Source: Methanosarcina acetivorans C2A
GTDB taxonomy: Archaea; Halobacteriota; Methanosarcinia; Methanosarcinales; Methanosarcinaceae
Reading direction: 5' to 3'
NCBI RefSeq assembly: GCF_000007345.1
Contig: NC_003552.1
Span: 5,456,001-5,520,000 of the forward strand
Length of the DNA: 64,000 nucleotides
Both the position numbers and the translations under genes were made by a program. The notes beneath the pieces were generated by a model. That model searched no databases. It saw only the letters and a program-made list of their open reading frames with translations, and was not told the DNA's origin. Positions 4,162-15,993 of the stretch are shown in pieces (the stretch's first letter is position 1; every line of letters starts with the position of its first letter).

Positions 4162-7100
4162 TCAATTCTTCTTTCTTCTATATCCCACAAAAACCGCTCC
4201 CATAAAGAGTAATAAAAAAAGCATTCCGACCAGGTCTGAAGCTGAAAAAGGCATGCTATCCGACTCAACATCGTCTTTGATTTTTTCTTTTGTCAGCTCA
4301 TAGCCTTCAATATATTCGTTCTTTACATCCGCTTCACCCGTTGGGGATCGAGCAGGGTCTGTCCCCACTCCGGAATCGATTTCAAGGGTACTGTTTGCAT
4401 TTTCCGAATAGTACTCCTCTTTGGAGACTACTTCGGCTTTTGCCCCGGTGCTGGAGCTGTGTTTACTGCCTTCGGGACTGTCAGTGTCCAAAGTCTCACC
4501 CCGGGCTTCGGCCATCAGCCGTTCATAGTCCTCCATAACATCGGTATCCACTACATTGGCATTCGGAGCAGAAACAACTCCCGTTATGTAGTCGTCAAGC
4601 AGGGGGTTTCCGCAGGTATGGTGGCAACAGGTAACCCCACTTTCCACCACGGATTCCACATATTCCCGCGTCAGGGCGTCGATGGTCTCCTAGTCTGCAT
4701 CCCAGTAACCCTTGCGAATGGCTTCAAGCATACGGGCTTCCATGGACTGCCTTGCCCAGGGATTGTTCGCGTCGAAGAACTCTTCCATCCCCAGGTCATA
4801 TTTATCCTGGATGTAGACATCATACATTTCAGTCCACGTTTCATCTGTGATCAGGTCCGGAGTCGTAACTTCCCACCCCCACAGGTTCTCAAGTCCAGAA
4901 CTCAGGATGGAAGCCCCGTAATACTCGTGTTCCATCATGCCTTTTATCCATTCTGGATTCAGGTTTCTGGTACGTATCTCCCTGACCAGGAACTGGCTAA
5001 GGGTTTCCACGACTGCGTTATTCGGGTCCCGAAGGTTACTCAGGTATATCTCGGGCGTTTGCCCGGATACGGTCCTGACAGCCAGCGCCAGCCCGCCGAG
5101 ATCTGAGAAGTAGCCATCCCCATACAGGACACCATAGTTGTTCGAGCTGATACTGTGTGTGACTACCTCAACCCCGTTGAGGTTCTGCCTGAAGATATCC
5201 TGCAGCTGTTCTCCCCACAGATTTTCTCCATAGGCATACCCCCACCCGTCGATGAAATAGTTCCCGATCACACTGTCATCTTCCCAGCTGCCGCTTGCAC
5301 CGATAGGTACTGATATCGATGGACCATACGAACCCTCAGATGCGGAGAATATCCTTATCAGTGAGTACTCCGATGCAGCCGATTCATTATACCCGTTCTT
5401 GACCAGCCATTCATAGGTTGCCATAGAACTCTGGTTGACATAATTCGGATAGAGGCCTGTATCATTCGCTTTAGCTGCCAGCTTGACGGCTTTGTCAAGG
5501 AGAGTTAGTTACTCCGGGAAAGTGTCCCTGTATACTCCGGACGGCACGATAACAACGTCTATCCTGGGCCTGCCGAGTTCTGCTTCAGGTATCAGTTCAA
5601 CATTTGTAGGCCTGCCCCATGCATCCCACACAGGTTTTACTCCCATGAGATACATTATCTCTGACTCCATAACTCCCTGATGTTTCATGGTCTCAGTAGC
5701 CCAGAGAAACACTGCTACCTTCTGAGGGTAAGTTCCGTTCTCCGCAAGGCACTGCTCAAGCAGCTGGTCCGCCATCTCGACCCCGACACTCCATGCCGCT
5801 CTGGTAGGTATCTCCCTGGAATCAAATGAGTAGAGGTTCCTTCCTGTAGGAATGACATCAGGTGTCCTTACAGGGTCCCCGCCCAACCCTGGTGGAATGA
5901 ACTCGCCTTCAAGTCCCGCAAGCAATCTTGGGACCTCGACAGTGGACGCCTTCAGATCATCCGAATATGCCAGGGAAATATTCAGGAACTCTGTCATGTT
6001 GTCCGAAATAACACCCAGGGTCATGCTTTGTGCATCTTCCGGTGAAGTCCCATTGATGATCACTTCGGATATCAAAAGCCTCGTATCGTTTTCTGAGATG
6101 CCGCTGTCTTCAGCATATTGCCTGAAATCAGTTCCAAGCATTGAGATTACCATGGACACCAGACCATCCCCCTCCGGCGGCTCGCCCAGAGTATGCAGGC
6201 CATAGGGCATGTATTCATTCTTCAGTGTGTAAAGGTAGTTACTCAATTCGTCTTTAAATAGCTCGAATTCCGTGGTATTGGCAGCTACACCAGTCAGATT
6301 CGCGTTCAGGTCGTAATCGAGGTTAAGTTCTTCACATTGTCTGATGATACTCTCCCTATATTGCTGCTTCACCAGTTCCTCGCCGACAAGGTCGTACATC
6401 AGCAGTTCATTGTCCAGAACAGAGAGGTTCCCGTAAAGGCCGGCAGCAACCAGAGGAGGAGTCAGATAGTCAATGATTACGGCATTGCTTCTTCTCTTTG
6501 CCTGTGTGGCACCGGCAGTCCCATCAACAGTGTAAAGGTACAGGTGAGGCATGTCCTGGATAAGGATAGCCGGCCAGCAACTCGTTACATCCAGCCCGGT
6601 CTGTTTTCCCGGGAGATATTCAAAGCTTCCATAGGTTCCAAAGTGTACGATGACATCTGCTTCATACTGTTTGTTAAGCCAGAGATAGAAGGCTATGTAT
6701 TGATGGTGAGGCACCACCGCCTCGTCATAGAACATCACGGAGTCGTTCTGTCCCTTGCCTCTCATTGGCTGCGGGGCAAGTAATATGTTTCCAAACCTTA
6801 TGTTAGGAATCACGATGTACTTTCCAGTCACGTTCTCATAGACCATGATCTCTCCGGGAGGATTTCCCCACCTTTCAATGACTTCATTCCTTTTATCTTC
6901 GGGAAGTTCATTGAACCATTCCAGGTAGACAGTTTCAGGAATAAGAGTCACGTTCCCGTTCTCTACCATCGCATTAAGTTCGCCTGGAGCCCATGTTCCG
7001 ATGTTTTTGCCCTGGGACTGCATCAGGTTTACTAATTCCTCAACATCAGGCAGGTGATCTCCGGTGTCATATCCTTCTTCCTTCAGGGCTTCCAGGACAT

Positions 7101-8352
7101 TAATCAGACTCACATGTGTGTCAAGCCCGCCTTCGTCCATCACACCAACTTCATCCTTTCCTGAAGCATGGTGGTAGTAGATCAATGCGACCTTCTTGCT
7201 GGTATTGCCCCCGTGCCTCAGATTTATCCATGAGAGCGTCCTGTCTACCAGCCATTCCACCTGCTCATCGATGGGGGCCTTGTGATAGACTTCCGTGAGA
7301 GGGTCCTTTACTTCACCTGACACGACAATCGGTTCTATTGCCCCGTCAAGTTCCGTCAGTGCAAGTCTGGTTCCAAGGAGGGAAATGGGAATACCTTCAT
7401 TGCTTTCCTTCCATTGTTCCGGAGTGGTCTGATATAAACCTGTGACAGCTGTTATGAGAGGCACATCCAGGGCTTCCAGATATTCAACCCCTTTTTCAAC
7501 TGGTTCGGTGGAGTAGGACTTTATCCTGTAACTCTTAGTGTTGATTATGGCATCTATGGATAGATTTGGAGTATTGTCGGAAGTATTTATGACCAGGGCA
7601 AGCGAATCGCCCAGCTGGCCGTATTCCGCAACACAATTGATATCGCTGGCTTCAAATTCCCTTATAAGGCTATCCGTTATCTCAGGTGTATTCTTCACAT
7701 AAAAGTCGGTATGGAACAGAATTGCCACAGTGGGCCTATCGGGGTCGTACACATAATGATCACCGTCTGTGTCCCCGTACCACTTCAGATATTCCGTGAC
7801 GTTTTCGAATGGTTTGCTTGAGTCAGGGTGATATATACCTACCTTTGGGATCACTATTGGCTCGCTGACCGTTCCATTCATACCAAAGAAATTCACCATC
7901 AGGTAAGTCAGGAGACGCTTGTGATTTTCAAGTCCGCTGTTGTCGAAATACTGTATTATGTACGGATGTTCGGTATGGTTGACATTGCCAAGAACCAGCC
8001 CCTCTTCTGTCAGTGGTGACAATACCACTACAGTTGCATTGTTACTGTTCTTTGCATCGTTAACCGCCTGTTCTACAGAAGGGATCAGGCTGTCCTGATA
8101 CAGATCCAGCAATATCAGATCCTGTGTACTGAGGTCAAGGCTGTCTGGGATTTTAGTCGTCAGGTATGTAGTATATTTGATGTGGGGATAATCCTTGATA
8201 GCCTCCATTGACAGCTGCTGCTGGGTACTTCCGGAAAAAATAGCTGTGACGTTCAGGGTGACGTTCTCATTCGCATCTGCCAATCCTGTAGGTGTGCAAA
8301 GCATGATGACCAGCGCACTTAATATCAAGAAACTGATTTTTTTATGCTCCAT
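4162..8352 (-). pseudogene. CobN/HmuS-like exported chelatase, second copy interrupted by an in-frame TAA and an in-frame TAG
   Basis: Three reading blocks (8352-5509, 5508-4690 and 4689-4162) lie in one continuous frame and together match the intact paralogue at 9382-13998. They are separated by a TAA at 5509-5511 and a TAG at 4690-4692. The TAA falls where the paralogue has Gln (FSYQIEMIDRAV against FPE-stop-LTLLDKAV), so one CAA to TAA change would explain it. The N-terminus has a signal peptide (KKISFLILSALVIMLC) and the C-terminus one membrane helix followed by RRKKN. Several residues conserved in the paralogue differ: GTHSTQEWLPGK is GTYGSFEYLPGK, and HLTPP is YLTPP. The copy also has only one N-terminal sensor-like domain where the paralogue has two. 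TAG can be decoded as pyrrolysine in Methanosarcina, but the TAA cannot, so full-length product is unlikely. The last ~165 codons are nearly identical to the paralogue while the rest is diverged. Confidence 0.85.
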
Positions 8353-8517: not shown

Positions 8518-8675
8518 GTTTTATCCTCCTCTACGGTTCGGAACAGGGCCTGTTCTTTTTTGTTTCTCTTCCCTGCAACCGATGGGGGGCAGAAAAAACC
8601 TCTCCAGCATGAAAATGTAGTCAATGTCCGACATCTCTTCTCAGTACTACCTGCTGCGAACCTGCACTACTCAAT
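8518..8675 (-). pseudogene. Remnant of a MotA/TolQ/ExbB-like gene
   Basis: On the + strand, short blocks here (GAACAGGGCCTGTTC; then ATGTAGTCAATGTCCGACA) match the 3' part of the intact exbB-like gene near 14635 and 14725 (GAACAGAACCTGTTC; ATGTAGTCGATATCGGACA). They occur in the same order and spacing relative to the CobN gene. No open frame remains. It is the decayed counterpart of the gene at 14498-15319. Confidence 0.7.
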
Positions 8676-8689
8676 TGTTTATGCCTTAC

Positions 8690-8960
8690 CTATCCCCGGC
8701 AAGAACCTGCCCATAAGCATGCAGCAAAAGTAGGGCTGCCAGGAGACCTGGCAGGGCAGAGAAACGAAAAGGAACAACTGAATAACTGCCCTGTTATTGC
8801 AAGAATTTCCCGTTTCCCAGCACTGAAAAGGCCGTATATGACTCCGGTTTTAAAACCAAAGATGAGAACTGTGATTAAGATAACGATAACAGTTAGTATG
8901 GAAATGATCGCAAGTAATCGTAAATAAATAACAATTATTATGATATTTATAGATAAGTAT
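8690..8960 (-). pseudogene. Remnant of a DUF2162 transporter gene with its upstream region
   Basis: The segment around 8794-8905 (TATTGCAAGAATTTCCCGTT followed by a stretch ending AACAGTTAGT) matches the 5' end of the intact DUF2162 gene at about 15873-15985. Similarity continues into the promoter DNA (AATAACAATTATTA against AAGTAACAATTGTTA). A piece near 8745-8775 matches 15650-15690. Most of the middle of the gene is gone. Downstream to 9180 the DNA is AT-rich with no gene that I can see. Confidence 0.7.
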
Positions 8961-9381: not shown

Positions 9382-12300
9382 TTAATTCTTCTTTCTTCCA
9401 TATCCAACAAAGACTGCTCCCATTAAGAGCAGTAAGAGAAGCATTCCAACCAGGTCTGAAGCTGAAAAAGGCATGCTATCCGACTCAACATCGTCTTTGA
9501 TTTTTTCTTTTGTCATCTCATAGCCTTCAATGTACTCGTTCTTTGCATCCGTTTTATCCTTTGGGGACCGGGTAAGGTCTGTCCCTACCCCGGAACCGGT
9601 TTCAAGGGTACTGTTTGCATTTTCCGAATAGTACTCCTCTTTGGAGACTACTTCGGCTTTTGCCCCGGTGCTGGAGCTGTGTTTACTGCCTTCGGGACTG
9701 TCGGTGTCCAAAGTCTCGCCCCGGGCTTCGGCCATCAGCCGTTCATAATCCTCCATAACATCGGTATCCACTACATTGGCATTCGGAGCAGAAATAACTC
9801 CCCGAATGTAGTCGTCAAGTAGAGGGTTTCCGCAGGTATGATGACAACAGGTGACTCCATTTTCTACAACGGATTCCACATATTCTTTTACAAGCTGTTG
9901 AGTAATTTCATCCGAAGCTTCCCAGTATCCCTTTCTCACGTTTTCAAGCATCCTGGCAGTTATGGACTGGTATGTATAGGCATTTTCGTTTTTAAGGAAA
10001 TCCGACACACCGATTCCGTATTTGTCATTAATGTATATATCGTACAGATTTTCCCAGTCCCTATCCGTAACAAGATCCGGGGTCACCACATCCCAGGCCC
10101 ACATATACTCAGTAAGTTTTCCAAATTCTCGAGCTCCTCCGTATTCATGATCCATCATGCCTTCTATCCACATGGGATTCAGATACCTTGAACGCAGCTC
10201 GGTTCTGAAAACCTCTTTCAGGCTTGCAATTTCGGGATTTTCGGTATCCTGAAGGTTTGCCACGTAAAGTTCAGGATTTTCTCCCTTCACTGAGCGGACC
10301 GCAAGAGTAAGCCCACCAAAGTACTGGTAAAAGTCATCATTGTCCATGAGCCCGTAAAGGTTGGAACTATCGCTGTGCAGGGCAGCATCAACATCCATCA
10401 GGTTCAGTCTGAACGTATCCTCACTGTTTTCACCCCAGACGTCGCTGCCGTATATACTTGAGAGCCTTGAGATATAGAGTTCTGCAAGTTTCGACTCATT
10501 ATCCCAGGTTCCGCTAGCAGGTATGGCCAGAGTCAGACCTGTCCCGTAATCCCCGGGGGCTTCACTGAATATCCTGGACCTTGAAAGTTCAAATGCGCTG
10601 CTGTTATCATATCCGGTATCTATCAGGGCGTCATACATCACAAGGGAGTTATGTCGGACATAATTTGTCTGGTTTGTCTCGTTAAGCTCCGAAACCATCA
10701 GGACTGCCCTGTCGATCATTTCGATCTGGTATGAAAAGGTGTCCCTGTAAAGGCCGGACGCGGTGATAAGCACGTCAATCCTCGGATGGGTCAGGTTTTC
10801 TGCAGGAATGACCTGAATATCAGTGATTCTGCCACTGCTATCTCTTACCGGTTTGACCCCCAGCAAAGCATATATCTGAGCTTCCATAAGCCCTTCATGC
10901 CTCATGGTTTCCGTGCTCCAGAGTACGAAACCTACCTTTTTGGGGTATAAGTTGTTATGAGATGCCTGATAATTTTTAAGTAACTGATCCGCAAGCATCC
11001 CCCCGAGAATCTCTGTTTCTTCGCTGGGGATCATTCTCTGGTCAAAACTGTAAAAGTTCCTTCCCGTAGGCAAAGCTTCGGGATTTCTGATAGGGTCATT
11101 GCCAGGTCCGGCTTCTATATATCCCGCATCAAGAGCCCTTAAGGTCTGGTCTATCTCTCTGGTTGAAAGAGCCAGCAGGGCAGAGTAATTTTCTGCAGTT
11201 TCGAGGTCCTCTGTAAGCTTCGGGTCTGTAGTATTCAGGACCAGAAGCTGGGCCCCCGAATAGTCCATGCCTTCCAGAAGAACTGCATTTAAAAGGTCTG
11301 TTGCATAAGCATCTGCTACTTCTTCCCGGGCTTCAGAGTCCGGGACTTCATATGAAATTACATCTGCAATGTGGTCTATGAATTCGCTTCCGAGAAGGGA
11401 CTTGATCATGGAAACAAGTTCTTCGTTTTCAGGTGCTTCTCCAAAGACATGCAGACCGTAGGGGATCAGGGTTGACTTGAGTTCATGAAGGTAATTGTGA
11501 ACATCCGTATCAACAAAATTTTCGAACTCGGTTTCCGTCATGTTTTCCATCTGACTGCAGGTGATATTCAGGTCATCCTCAAGCCCCAGGGACCCGTAAA
11601 GTTCTATTGTCGTGTTGCGGTACATGACTTTTAAGGACTGGTTATCGGCTTCCATGTAAGAATGGATCTTCTCATGAAGGGTGCTAAGCTCGTCATAAAG
11701 CCCGGAAGTGACGATTGGGGGCGTGAGGTGATCTATGATTACAGCATTTCCCCTGCGTTTTGCCTGGGTGCCTTCCCCAACGTCATCCATTATATAGGGA
11801 TAGATTACAGGCGTGTCGTCGACCATGATGCAGGGATAGTCATATCTTGAAAGCCCTACTTGCTTTCCCGGCAGCCACTCCTGGGTGCTGTGCGTTCCGA
11901 AATGGATGAAGGCATCTGCATCAAAGACCTTATTAACCCAGAAGTATGCTGCAAGGTACTGATGGGTTGGAGGCATTGTCTTATTGTGATAGATTTTGGA
12001 TTCATCAGAAAGTCCGCCTCTTGTTGGTTGGGGCATGAATACAATGTTTCCGAAATTAACTGCGGGAATAACGAAACAATCCTCGTACACCATAATATCT
12101 CCGGGAGGCTCTCCCCATGTGTTTTCAACGTCTTTTCTCACCTCTTCCGGCAGGGTGTTATACCATACGAGGTAGTCTTCAACAGGGACAAGAGTAACAT
12201 TTACGGAATTAACCATCTTTTCAAGTTCTCCGGGAGTCCAGCTGCCAATGTTTCTGCTATCTATGAAGAGTTTTATGAACTCACTACCATTCGGAATTGA

Positions 12301-13998
12301 ACCGTTTCCAAGATCATACCCCTCACTTTTCATCTGTTCAAGGAGGAGGGTGAAACTGGGCGCGATATCAAGGTAGCTTGCGCCGATATTATTTTTCCCG
12401 CCTTCGTGATTGTAGTAGATTACAACGACCTTCTTGTCCTGGTTACGGGTTCTGCCAAGTTCTGCCCACTCTATTGCCCTGTTCCCGAGCCAGTCTACCT
12501 GGAGGAGGTGGGGCGCGTAGTAATACCTCTCGGTTTCAGGTTCCTGAACTCTTCCTCCAATCCAGATCCCCTCAATGCAGCCGTCAAGTTCCGGCATGTT
12601 AACCTGGGAAGGTACACTGTTGGGGTTCATTCCAAAAGAACTGTTGTTATATTCGGAAGGAGAACTGTAATAATCGGCTATTGCCTTGATAACAGGCACA
12701 TTATATTTTTCAAGATATTCGACCCCGATCTCAGGCTGATAATAATTGAGGCGGAACATTTTTAAGTTGATAATAACGTCGACCAGCACTGTACCGTTTT
12801 TAGTGAAATAGTCCACGTCCTGGCTGCAGACTTCAGAGGTTGTATCAATAACATTGCAGCCTTTGGATTCCAGGTCCCTTATTATTGCATCATCACACAG
12901 ATAATCGATTTCATCAGTTCTCAGCGCGCCTGTAGAAACGATGCCTATTGTTGGGGCTGACGGGTCATATCCATGCCCTGTATACCATTCAAGGTACTCG
13001 TCGCTGTTTTCAAATATATATGGAAAAGCGTCAGGGTGGTAGATTCCCTGTTTCGGGATAGAGGGAGGATTTGGGTCCTGATAATCAATATAGGTGTCGA
13101 AAAGGGTTTTCCCTGTATACCTCACCAGGTTTTCCATGTTTTCCATGCCGCCGTTTTTGAGGTACTCCTCCATAAAATCGATATTTTTGATGTCATTTGT
13201 AATTCCACCCTGCGAGCTCATGCCTATGAATCCTATGAGGGTGCCCGTATTCTGTGCGGAGAGCAGTTCCGGTCCAAACTCTGAGAGCTGGTAATTACTC
13301 ACAATATAGAGGATTACGGCTTCCTGATCCGAAAAATCAGGGTCCTGAAGATTTACGGCATCTTTCCCTGTCATCGCAGTTATATTGAAACAGTCTGCAA
13401 TAACAGGTCTTTCAGATTTGATTTTGTTGAGGCAATACACATTAGGGTCATTGTTGAATATTAAAGTAATGTCGACTTTTGGCTTTATTACCTGTACATC
13501 CCCAATTTCGGATTCGCGGAATTTCCCGCAGAACTTCTGCCCCATAAATATCAGGAGGTTTTCCATATTATCACTGCCTCCCTGAATCCAGTATCTTTCG
13601 ATATCTCTGAACTCTTCATCCCTCAGGTCAAGTTTTGCAAGGGAAAAGGAAGGGGAGAGATTATACCCGATTACCGTACTTCCGTTTGACGCAGAGGCAT
13701 TGATTTCATCTTCTAAATTTTTAAGCTGGATTTCACTCCAGGAATCAATAAAAATGACTTCGTAGTCTGAAAAATTGGTTTCCGGAGGTATACTGTCACC
13801 GGAACCAAGGATTTGCAGGTTAAGTTCGGATGCTATAGAGACATCCAGGCTCACGTTTTGCAAAGCATCTTCGTTCATGTCTTCTCCAAGCAAAAACAGC
13901 ATATTACTTTTGTTTTCCGAAGCTGAAACCGGCACCACAAAAAATGCAAGAACTATTAATAGAGTTAAAAATGCAAAACTTTTCTTTTGGAACAACAT
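9382..13998 (-). CDS. Exported, membrane-anchored CobN/HmuS-like chelatase
   Basis: This 1538-residue protein is of the CobN/ChlH type. It has an N-terminal signal peptide (KKSFAFLTLLIVLAFFVVPVSA), a very long ectodomain rich in N-x-S/T sites, and a C-terminal helix (DLVGMLLLLLLMGAVFVGY) followed by GRKKN, so the bulk should face outside the cell. Two similar domains sit at about residues 30-165 and 175-310, each ending in a GG-x-(D/E)NMENL segment. CobN-type signatures follow: GTHSTQEWLPGK near residue 702, then EGTQAKRRGNAVIIDHLTPP, and GRNFYSFDQR. A cytoplasmic CobN works with ATPase subunits CobS/CobT; none is encoded nearby and ATP would be absent outside. Genes for ExbB-like, DUF2149 and DUF2162 proteins lie just upstream on the same strand, giving a set like the Bacteroidetes hmu operon, where CobN-like HmuS acts on haem. 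Likely role: binding, or inserting or removing metal from, an external tetrapyrrole or corrinoid (inference). Confidence 0.88.
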   Translation of the reverse strand: MLFQKKSFAFLTLLIVLAFFVVPVSASENKSNMLFLLGEDMNEDALQNVSLDVSIASELNLQILGSGDSIPPETNFSDYEVIFIDSWSEIQLKNLEDEINASASNGSTVIGYNLSPSFSLAKLDLRDEEFRDIERYWIQGGSDNMENLLIFMGQKFCGKFRESEIGDVQVIKPKVDITLIFNNDPNVYCLNKIKSERPVIADCFNITAMTGKDAVNLQDPDFSDQEAVILYIVSNYQLSEFGPELLSAQNTGTLIGFIGMSSQGGITNDIKNIDFMEEYLKNGGMENMENLVRYTGKTLFDTYIDYQDPNPPSIPKQGIYHPDAFPYIFENSDEYLEWYTGHGYDPSAPTIGIVSTGALRTDEIDYLCDDAIIRDLESKGCNVIDTTSEVCSQDVDYFTKNGTVLVDVIINLKMFRLNYYQPEIGVEYLEKYNVPVIKAIADYYSSPSEYNNSSFGMNPNSVPSQVNMPELDGCIEGIWIGGRVQEPETERYYYAPHLLQVDWLGNRAIEWAELGRTRNQDKKVVVIYYNHEGGKNNIGASYLDIAPSFTLLLEQMKSEGYDLGNGSIPNGSEFIKLFIDSRNIGSWTPGELEKMVNSVNVTLVPVEDYLVWYNTLPEEVRKDVENTWGEPPGDIMVYEDCFVIPAVNFGNIVFMPQPTRGGLSDESKIYHNKTMPPTHQYLAAYFWVNKVFDADAFIHFGTHSTQEWLPGKQVGLSRYDYPCIMVDDTPVIYPYIMDDVGEGTQAKRRGNAVIIDHLTPPIVTSGLYDELSTLHEKIHSYMEADNQSLKVMYRNTTIELYGSLGLEDDLNITCSQMENMTETEFENFVDTDVHNYLHELKSTLIPYGLHVFGEAPENEELVSMIKSLLGSEFIDHIADVISYEVPDSEAREEVADAYATDLLNAVLLEGMDYSGAQLLVLNTTDPKLTEDLETAENYSALLALSTREIDQTLRALDAGYIEAGPGNDPIRNPEALPTGRNFYSFDQRMIPSEETEILGGMLADQLLKNYQASHNNLYPKKVGFVLWSTETMRHEGLMEAQIYALLGVKPVRDSSGRITDIQVIPAENLTHPRIDVLITASGLYRDTFSYQIEMIDRAVLMVSELNETNQTNYVRHNSLVMYDALIDTGYDNSSAFELSRSRIFSEAPGDYGTGLTLAIPASGTWDNESKLAELYISRLSSIYGSDVWGENSEDTFRLNLMDVDAALHSDSSNLYGLMDNDDFYQYFGGLTLAVRSVKGENPELYVANLQDTENPEIASLKEVFRTELRSRYLNPMWIEGMMDHEYGGAREFGKLTEYMWAWDVVTPDLVTDRDWENLYDIYINDKYGIGVSDFLKNENAYTYQSITARMLENVRKGYWEASDEITQQLVKEYVESVVENGVTCCHHTCGNPLLDDYIRGVISAPNANVVDTDVMEDYERLMAEARGETLDTDSPEGSKHSSSTGAKAEVVSKEEYYSENANSTLETGSGVGTDLTRSPKDKTDAKNEYIEGYEMTKEKIKDDVESDSMPFSASDLVGMLLLLLLMGAVFVGYGRKKN

Positions 13999-14205
13999 AT
14001 TCGAAATCTCCTCTTTTCAAACACGAATTTTTTAAACTGAAGATTCAACAACCTGAATTCTTAAACTTGAAATTTAGAAATTACAGGTAAATTGAAGAAA
14101 AAAGGAATCACCAATCCCGGAAATAAAATTCAATATCAATCGCAATGATCATAAAATATAGACATCTAGAGCTGAAATTTGTCATATCAGTTGAAATATA
14201 ATCCA

Positions 14206-14577
14206 TTAAGTATCCGTTTCATTCCCTTCGGAGTCTTCCGGGACATAAATCACCCTGCCATCAGCCAACCTGTAGGCCGTTCCGAGGGCTTCCCCGGTGC
14301 CTCCTCCAATATTGTCGGTCATATTCAGGACTTCTATGGGCTGCCCTTCTTCCTTGATGATTATCTTCATGTCCTCAGCTCCGGGATTTTTTACAATTGT
14401 AATGTCCTCATTCGAGCTCAGGAGTTCGGGGAGATGGTAGGACATTACGAGCGCCACGAGCAGGGCCACGGAAAAGACCATTGCCACATCGAAAAGGTTA
14501 GCAACTCCCGTCAACGGGTTCAGATCTTCCGGGTCCTCCCGGAGCCCGGTCCGCCGGTAACGTCTGCTTTTTCTCAT
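14206..14577 (-). CDS. DUF2149 membrane protein, ExbD-like position and topology
   Basis: This 123-residue protein has a basic N-terminus, one transmembrane helix (about residues 27-48) and a small external domain. Its sequence fits DUF2149. The helix begins with LFDVAMVFSVALLVAL, placing an acidic residue, D30, at its start as in ExbD/TolR/MotB, where that Asp carries the ion flux. It overlaps the 3' end of the exbB-like gene by 80 bp and is followed after 207 bp by the CobN-like gene. This suggests it is the stator partner of the ExbB-like channel (inference from position and topology). The decayed duplicate cassette has lost this gene. Confidence 0.78.
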   Translation of the reverse strand: MRKSRRYRRTGLREDPEDLNPLTGVANLFDVAMVFSVALLVALVMSYHLPELLSSNEDITIVKNPGAEDMKIIIKEEGQPIEVLNMTDNIGGGTGEALGTAYRLADGRVIYVPEDSEGNETDT

Positions 14578-15319
14578 TTGTTTCCTCCATCATTTCCGCC
14601 TTCATTTCATCCTTCATTTTCTCATCTGCAACCCTGAACAGAACCTGTTCATTTATCTGCCAATTTCCGTTTCCTGTCGAGTTTCCAGAAACCACCTTAA
14701 AATTCTCCTCCAGAACATTCAGAATGTAGTCGATATCGGACAGATCCTCCCAGTACCAGCGCCTCCGGACCTGAGTCAGGACATAGCCTACACTTCCTGC
14801 GAAAAGCCCGACAACGGTAGTGGCAAAAGCGATCATCAGGTTGTTTGCAAGGGTGGCAATATCTCCCTGGGAAAGCCCGATCAGAGCAGGACCCAGCGGG
14901 ATCAGAGTGCCCATAAGTCCGAGCATGGGAGAAATAGTCGCCAGGATTTTTGTTTTCTCAAGCTGCTTTGACATTCCGATCTCATATTCAGCTGCAAGCT
15001 TTTCGATCGCAGAAAAATACCTCTGTTCAATGAAGGGGGCTGCATCCCTTGAAAAGGAAGTGACCATAAAGTTCTGCCGGATTTCCCGGAGAGCTTTTGC
15101 AGCTTCAGGAAACTCCAGGTTCTTCACGGTTTTTCCAAGTTCTTTGCAGTCATCTTCCAGCTTCCGTATGTCCCTGTGCCTTTTTGCATACTCGGACAAA
15201 AACTCCCCTATAAGGATAAGGGAAGCCAGGACCGACAGCATGAGGACTATTACCACGGGATAAAGCAGGGCAGCCGAAAAGGTATACATTATCCCGAAAA
15301 GCGGACCTTCCAGGCTCAT
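14498..15319 (-). CDS. MotA/TolQ/ExbB-family proton channel protein
   Basis: This 273-residue protein has an N-terminal helix, a long charged cytoplasmic region with a coiled-coil look (residues about 38-125), and two closely spaced helices. These carry the family signature ISPMLGLMGTLIPLGPAL and NNLMIAFATTVVGLFAGSV, including the Pro and Thr residues lining the ion path in ExbB/TolQ. It would use the ion gradient to drive work outside the membrane together with a DUF2149 partner. Its start overlaps the DUF2162 stop by four bases (translational coupling), and its end overlaps DUF2149. Archaea lack the outer membrane and TonB that ExbB normally serves, so the target is probably the exported CobN-like protein (inference). 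Confidence 0.88.
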   Translation of the reverse strand: MSLEGPLFGIMYTFSAALLYPVVIVLMLSVLASLILIGEFLSEYAKRHRDIRKLEDDCKELGKTVKNLEFPEAAKALREIRQNFMVTSFSRDAAPFIEQRYFSAIEKLAAEYEIGMSKQLEKTKILATISPMLGLMGTLIPLGPALIGLSQGDIATLANNLMIAFATTVVGLFAGSVGYVLTQVRRRWYWEDLSDIDYILNVLEENFKVVSGNSTGNGNWQINEQVLFRVADEKMKDEMKAEMMEETNEKKQTLPADRAPGGPGRSEPVDGSC

Positions 15320-15993
15320 TGCTTATGCCTCACCTGTTCCAGCAGGAACCCACCCATGATAACTATAGCGCAGAGCGTAAGGGGAATGAAACCCGTGTTT
15401 CCTCCCGAAAGGGGCACAAGGTTCAGCTGTTTAGTTTTAATGTATGCCGGGATGAGCATCGCTGCAAGCAGATAGTAGATCCCGAGGAGAAGCATTGCGC
15501 TCCCCAGGGTATCAGGAGATTTCCCGAGCTTCTTGAACCCGAAGGAAGACAGCAGAACCGAGGCAAAAAAGGCAGTCCCTACAAGCAGTCCGACCTTTAC
15601 TCCGCTGATGTCAAGGCTTGCTGCAAGGAGCATGCAACAGAATGCAAGGGCTGCAAGGCAGACAGGGCAGGGTAAAGAAATGAAAAGGAAGGTCCGCTTT
15701 GACACATCCTTTCCACTAGACCACTTTTTTTGGGTATATATCCCGGCTCCCACAAGGAACAGGGAAAGCAACACATGGATCCCAAGCCCCAGGTTTGAGA
15801 TTTTTGCATAATTTTCCATGCTTACGTTTCCCACAACTCCCCCCACAAATAAGGAGAGCACGAGATAACTACCTGCTATTGCAAGAATTTCCCGTTTCCC
15901 GACATTGGAGAAGCCGCATCCAACTCCTGTTTTCAATCCAAAGATGAAAATTGCGATTAAGATACCTGTAACAGTTAGTGTGACCTGAGTCAT
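15316..15993 (-). CDS. DUF2162 predicted transporter
   Basis: This 225-residue, very hydrophobic protein has about seven membrane helices. It has Cys-containing segments in the membrane (TGVGCGFSNVGKREI; CPVCLAALAFCCMLL) and matches the archaeal family DUF2162, annotated as a predicted transporter. It is the first gene of the minus-strand set DUF2162-exbB-DUF2149-cobN and is coupled to exbB by a 4-bp overlap. The conserved cysteines suggest a metal or metallocofactor substrate, which I cannot name. A decayed copy of its 5' end lies at 8794-8905. Confidence 0.8.
   Translation of the reverse strand: MTQVTLTVTGILIAIFIFGLKTGVGCGFSNVGKREILAIAGSYLVLSLFVGGVVGNVSMENYAKISNLGLGIHVLLSLFLVGAGIYTQKKWSSGKDVSKRTFLFISLPCPVCLAALAFCCMLLAASLDISGVKVGLLVGTAFFASVLLSSFGFKKLGKSPDTLGSAMLLLGIYYLLAAMLIPAYIKTKQLNLVPLSGGNTGFIPLTLCAIVIMGGFLLEQVRHKQ

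Follow-up and report, generated by a model that had tools for sequence, protein, structure and literature searches.

What does an exported chelatase subunit do beside a membrane motor in an archaeon, a cell without an outer membrane? Four minus-strand genes of Methanosarcina acetivorans, at 15993–9382 of the 64-kb window (the whole stretch of DNA analysed), raise this question, and our analysis confirms the coordinates, strand and overlaps that the original prediction had given for them. They encode a DUF2162 membrane protein of 225 aa with about seven TM segments (15316–15993; Pfam PF09930, 231 bits), an HmuU-like channel subunit of the ExbB/TolQ/MotA type (14498–15319; 273 aa; PF01618 MotA_ExbB, 41 bits, E 2.2e-10), a DUF2149 protein of the HmuV family (14206–14577; 123 aa; PF09919, 120 bits) and an extracytoplasmic CobN-like protein (9382–13998; 1538 aa; PF02514 CobN-Mg_chel, 1181 bits). 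The DUF2162 and ExbB-like genes overlap by 4 bp and the ExbB-like and DUF2149 genes by 80 bp, while a 207-bp gap separates DUF2149 from the CobN-like gene. The ExbB-like protein also matches solved ExbB/TolQ structures (E 4e-4). The genome holds 12 CobN loci (nine intact surface, two cytoplasmic and one decayed), together with three DUF2149 and three DUF2162 genes; three copies of the cassette are intact.

A signal peptide, a membrane anchor and an enrichment in N-glycosylation sequons back the surface location proposed earlier for the CobN-like protein. The Sec-type signal MLFQKKSFAFLTLLIVLAFFVVPVSA (residues 1–26, judged by eye; 13921–13998, minus strand) has a hydrophobic core and a VSA/SE site, and the C-terminal TM anchor (9400–9453, minus strand) is a hydrophobic stretch followed by GRKKN; a C-terminal TM segment is predicted in the intact surface paralogues too. 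The protein carries 26 sequons against 12.6 in shuffled sequences (z 3.6), an excess found in all nine surface CobN paralogues (z 3.6–6.2) and in neither of the two cytoplasmic CobNs of the same genome (z −2.1 and −0.8), which supports a CobN-like protein that faces outward. One surface paralogue (L022, 726–6494; 1922 aa) has N-terminal CarboxypepD_reg-like repeats, and others have long N-terminal extensions with no domain assigned.

The genes also recur together elsewhere; the original prediction had named a failure to do so as grounds for its refutation. Of the 393 Halobacteriota genomes sampled, 118 contain DUF2149, and ExbB adjoins it at all 141 testable loci (archaeal, plasmid-borne and other bacterial), so that the pairing is more than chance. 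CobN lies within the fetched stretch at 48 of 66 testable archaeal loci and at 21 of 21 testable loci of plasmids and other bacteria. Beside many cassettes, mostly in Methanosarcina, stands a gene for an ArsR-family protein, a candidate regulator (L019, 9436–9951, where it is divergent, and about 15 loci belonging to the same cluster); it is absent at the 9382–15993 copy.

The Bacteroidota hmu operon, with the order HmuY-HmuR-CobN(HmuS)-HmuT-ExbB(HmuU)-DUF2149(HmuV) (PMC10434189), offers the closest framework, and three of the four genes are equivalent to its members by family: CobN to HmuS, ExbB to HmuU and DUF2149 to HmuV. HmuT itself has no Pfam family. With B. finegoldii HmuT as its seed, an iterative search picked up genes in the same slot from Bacteroidota and Planctomycetota before it reached DUF2162 (E about 1e-6), and it converged on 134 proteins, all but four of which were scored by script as DUF2162 or same-slot; by coordinates these four lie directly before ExbB and missed the script rule, probably through over-long ORF calls. 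When the profile of the HmuT set was aligned to that of DUF2162 with hhalign, the result (probability 95.8%, E 6.9e-9) likewise pointed to a distant homology. Given these family assignments and the relationship between DUF2162 and HmuT, the archaeal cassette corresponds to hmuSTUV, so that the Hmu-likeness noted earlier extends further than was claimed, to all four genes; HmuY and HmuR are absent from the M. acetivorans locus. The 2025 HmuS paper described the archaeal homologues as of unknown function and outside complete hmu operons (PMC12583661). What is new is that the inner-membrane half of hmu is present and conserved in many archaea, that HmuT gains a family, DUF2162, and that a cargo class can be proposed from independent regulatory evidence. 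Moreover, powering an outer-membrane receptor cannot simply be the role of HmuU and HmuV where they occur without an outer membrane or where the organism has its own distinct TonB set, which points to the chelatase or the permease as their client.

The two small membrane proteins carry features of their own. In DUF2162, P108, C109, P110, C112 and H73 are invariant across an alignment of 30 proteins, the first four within a PCPVC motif (residues 108–112; 15658–15672, minus strand). This PCPxC motif is kept in the Desulfobacterota members inspected and absent from HmuT of haem systems; it goes with the cobalt-linked branch only. A structure model of DUF2162 gave no significant fold match in the PDB; the protein is likely the permease of the cassette. 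In DUF2149, Asp30 (14488–14490, minus strand) stands where the single TM helix begins, just as the original prediction had it, and is invariant in 38 sequences; it is a candidate ion-carrying residue. The AF2 model, with a helix at 21–46 and strands thereafter, suggests a single TM helix followed by a beta-rich outer domain, at a mean pLDDT of only 61 that is too poor for a structure search. The proposed likeness to ExbD holds for this arrangement of Asp and TM helix, whereas homology drew no support from hhalign in a comparison with only four ExbD sequences.

The active site of the CobN-like protein departs from that of its best PDB match, HmuS (9d26, E 1e-149). His703 (11890–11892, minus strand) aligns with the essential His538 of HmuS, whose H538A mutant is inactive (PMC12583661). 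Elsewhere, the Met79 position of HmuS is occupied by Val, in a divergent region where the alignment is uncertain, His254-Gly-Arg becomes Met-Phe-Arg, and the Met-rich insertion of HmuS domain IV shrinks from about 220 to 64 residues. The HmuS sequence LSLDHxxEFMGG, which contains His1209, reads DNDDFYQYFGG here, with Asp in place of His1209; this second active-site position is Asp in true CobN (DSDDYYQFEGG) and His in HmuS and BchH. A tree built with a quick method under LG+G4 places the archaeal surface CobNs in a single clade (support 100) outside HmuS and cytoplasmic CobN/BchH, and their grouping with a Desulfobacterota branch is weakly supported (81). Judged by these residues, the M. acetivorans protein is unlikely to be an HmuS haem de-chelatase proper. 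One subclade of surface CobNs, comprising MA_449k, Methanoculleus and others (eleven loci in our set), has Phe at the catalytic His position, and these are probably non-catalytic binders. With the catalytic His lost in one archaeal subclade, the chemistry cannot be universal in surface CobNs.

Relatives of the cassette in bacteria point to its cargo. In Trichlorobacter lovleyi pGLOV01, a TonB-dependent receptor gene followed by DUF2162, ExbB, DUF2149 and CobN is preceded by a tandem pair of cobalamin riboswitches and stands amid cobamide genes; the 2012 genome paper gave the role of its CobN as unknown (PMC3403914). DUF2162 scores over the cut-off in 35 of 395 Desulfobacterota genomes, and a cobalamin riboswitch stands just upstream of the cassette at 16 of the 19 Desulfobacterota loci with enough upstream sequence, against 0.14 expected from the riboswitch counts of the same genomes, the loci being related by descent and not independent. 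Six Desulfobacterota operons encode BtuF-CbiZ fusions, with a cobalamin riboswitch upstream at nearly all of them, and four encode CbiK. The presence of BtuF-CbiZ beside DUF2162 cassettes suggests corrinoid processing outside the cytoplasm; no FecCD/BtuC-type permease was found within the Desulfobacterota cassettes.

Among archaea, seven of roughly 90 loci, none of them in Methanosarcina, adjoin cbiMNQO, cbiT or cbiA; at one of the seven (L140), CbiO and DUF2162 overlap by 4 bp. This neighbour frequency is modest and by itself too weak to carry a claim about cargo. No cobamide genes lie beside the 9382–15993 cassette, and an Rfam scan of the 64-kb window and the paralogous M. acetivorans loci returned no riboswitch and no other match. 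Thus, while cobalt or B12-type molecules are well supported as the cargo class, we infer by analogy that the same cargo applies in Methanosarcina itself, since the cbi-adjoining loci are a minority from which that genus is missing. Of the cargoes named in the original prediction (corrinoid, haem-like or nickel tetrapyrrole), the first is now favoured and the second disfavoured by residues, tree and regulation.

Our preferred reading, in which we place somewhat better than even confidence, is that the locus encodes an archaeal version of the inner-membrane module HmuS-T-U-V whose CobN is motor-driven and whose specialised cargo is a cobalt tetrapyrrole, either a corrinoid or a cobalt complex of a related kind. 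The surface-anchored CobN-like protein would capture a metallated tetrapyrrole and either free the metal or hand the molecule on. ExbB and DUF2149 would form an ion-driven stator, the outer part of DUF2149 driving the conformational cycle of CobN and so doing the job that AAA+ ChlI/D or CobS/T perform for cytoplasmic family members, and the DUF2162 permease would bring released cobalt inward. Against this reading, cobalt is very hard to pull from an intact corrin ring; the client step would be either metal removal or release of the bound corrinoid. De-metallation rather than binding, coupling to the motor and metal transport by DUF2162 are the steps of this scheme that we infer.

A surface CobN that binds corrinoids without chemistry, the motor releasing them to BtuFCD or to DUF2162 itself, would explain why the Phe-for-His subclade still keeps the cassette, why bacterial operons carry BtuF-CbiZ fusions and why, of two cassette-bearing genomes, G449 has no detected FecCD permease and G407 none over the cut-off. 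These two assemblies may, however, be incomplete, the catalytic His is kept in most members including the M. acetivorans protein, and a 225-aa DUF2162 seems small for carrying a corrinoid, so that we consider such a receptor rather unlikely. Uptake of nickel, whether bound in tetrapyrroles or in other chelates, would suit the high nickel need of methanogens and has parallels in an Azospirillum copy near nikR and in a Runella plasmid (L041), where a receptor, a DsbD_2/NicO-like permease, ExbB, DUF2149 and CobN sit inside a hyp cluster for nickel hydrogenase maturation, possibly a nickel version of the cassette; but neither copy has DUF2162, the form of the cassette that does have it is linked to cobalamin, and archaeal copies have CbiN, of the cobalt type, as a neighbour, which makes nickel an improbable cargo. 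Haem salvage as in Bacteroidota, with the surface CobN a de-chelatase supplying iron, has in its favour the hmuSTUV equivalence, HmuS as best PDB match and the response of M. barkeri BtuS-type proteins to iron or sulfur source (PMC10846266), which also counts against a cobalt cargo, but it is highly doubtful and we reject it as the best reading of the cargo, given that the Met79/His254 haem site, the Met-rich insert and the second active-site His are all missing, that the archaeal clade is separate from HmuS and that the closest bacterial cassettes of the same order are cobalamin-regulated.

Cytoplasmic CobN and ChlH require AAA+ partners, and M. acetivorans encodes a ChlI/D-type protein near one of its cytoplasmic CobNs; near CobN–DUF2149, no ChlI-like gene was found at any of 112 loci with a single-seed profile of limited reach. 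This result, the lack of an archaeal outer membrane and the separate exbB-exbD-tonB set within the T. lovleyi cluster help the idea that ExbB–DUF2149 may energise the surface CobN. At seven archaeal loci that have neither CobN nor DUF2162 (in Argoarchaeum, Methanoperedenaceae GB37 and others), the gene directly before ExbB encodes a C-terminally anchored surface protein of 1966–3138 aa; those that were scanned contain CARDB and further surface domains. These giant proteins, together with the missing outer membrane and the separate tonB set, speak for, without proving, a motor that acts on anchored surface proteins, and ExbB–DUF2149 may thus be a general archaeal surface motor with other surface clients. 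We advance only tentatively the broader proposal of an ABC-independent uptake route common to archaea and Desulfobacterota. In it, an extracellular CobN powered by an ion-driven motor would extract cobalt from scavenged corrinoids for import by DUF2162, and the ExbB–DUF2149 motor would also drive the giant surface proteins of archaea.

A second, decayed cassette, absent from the original prediction, lies just downstream (8896–4162). It comprises remnants of DUF2162 and ExbB genes (8593–8896, minus strand; tblastn E 8e-9, 1e-5 and 3e-4) and a surface CobN gene (4162–8352, minus strand) with an in-frame TAA at 5509–5511, a TAG at 4690–4692 and Tyr at the equivalent of His703. The last 502 bp of this gene are 91.6% identical to the intact one, against about 45% for the whole protein, a pattern that would fit gene conversion. 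Among the pyrrolysine candidates of a 2005 study was a CobN homologue from M. acetivorans (PMC1242214); the decayed gene is very probably that candidate, being the only M. acetivorans CobN with an inner TAG. We reject read-through in view of the additional in-frame TAA, which argues for a pseudogene, and of the lost catalytic His.

Compared with known systems, the archaeal cassette shares with hmuYRSTUV a CobN-like protein that bears a signal peptide and is anchored in the membrane, an HmuT-related permease, an ExbB-like HmuU, a DUF2149 HmuV and tight clustering, but it dispenses with HmuY and HmuR, in keeping with a cell that has no outer membrane, places the permease and motor genes before CobN, lacks the haem ligands peculiar to HmuS along with its Met-rich insert and His1209, and has a PCPxC motif in its permease that HmuT lacks. 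The cobalamin-riboswitch cassettes of Desulfobacterota have the same four families, the order DUF2162-ExbB-DUF2149-CobN and the CobN-type active-site Asp, and differ in their TonB-dependent receptor, their riboswitch and, often, BtuF-CbiZ or CbiK. With aerobic cobaltochelatase CobN or ChlH, which work with CobS/T or ChlI/D, the archaeal protein has the large-subunit family and the catalytic His in common; those enzymes, in contrast, are cytoplasmic, driven by ATP through AAA+ partners, devoted to biosynthetic metal insertion and in a separate clade, whereas the archaeal protein is exported. Like the ExbBD, TolQR and MotAB stators, finally, the cassette pairs an ExbB-family channel with a small one-TM protein bearing Asp at the helix start, although a profile comparison with four ExbD sequences gave no significant match to DUF2149, and where the known stators engage TonB, TolA or peptidoglycan, the partner in the archaeal cassette would be the surface CobN.
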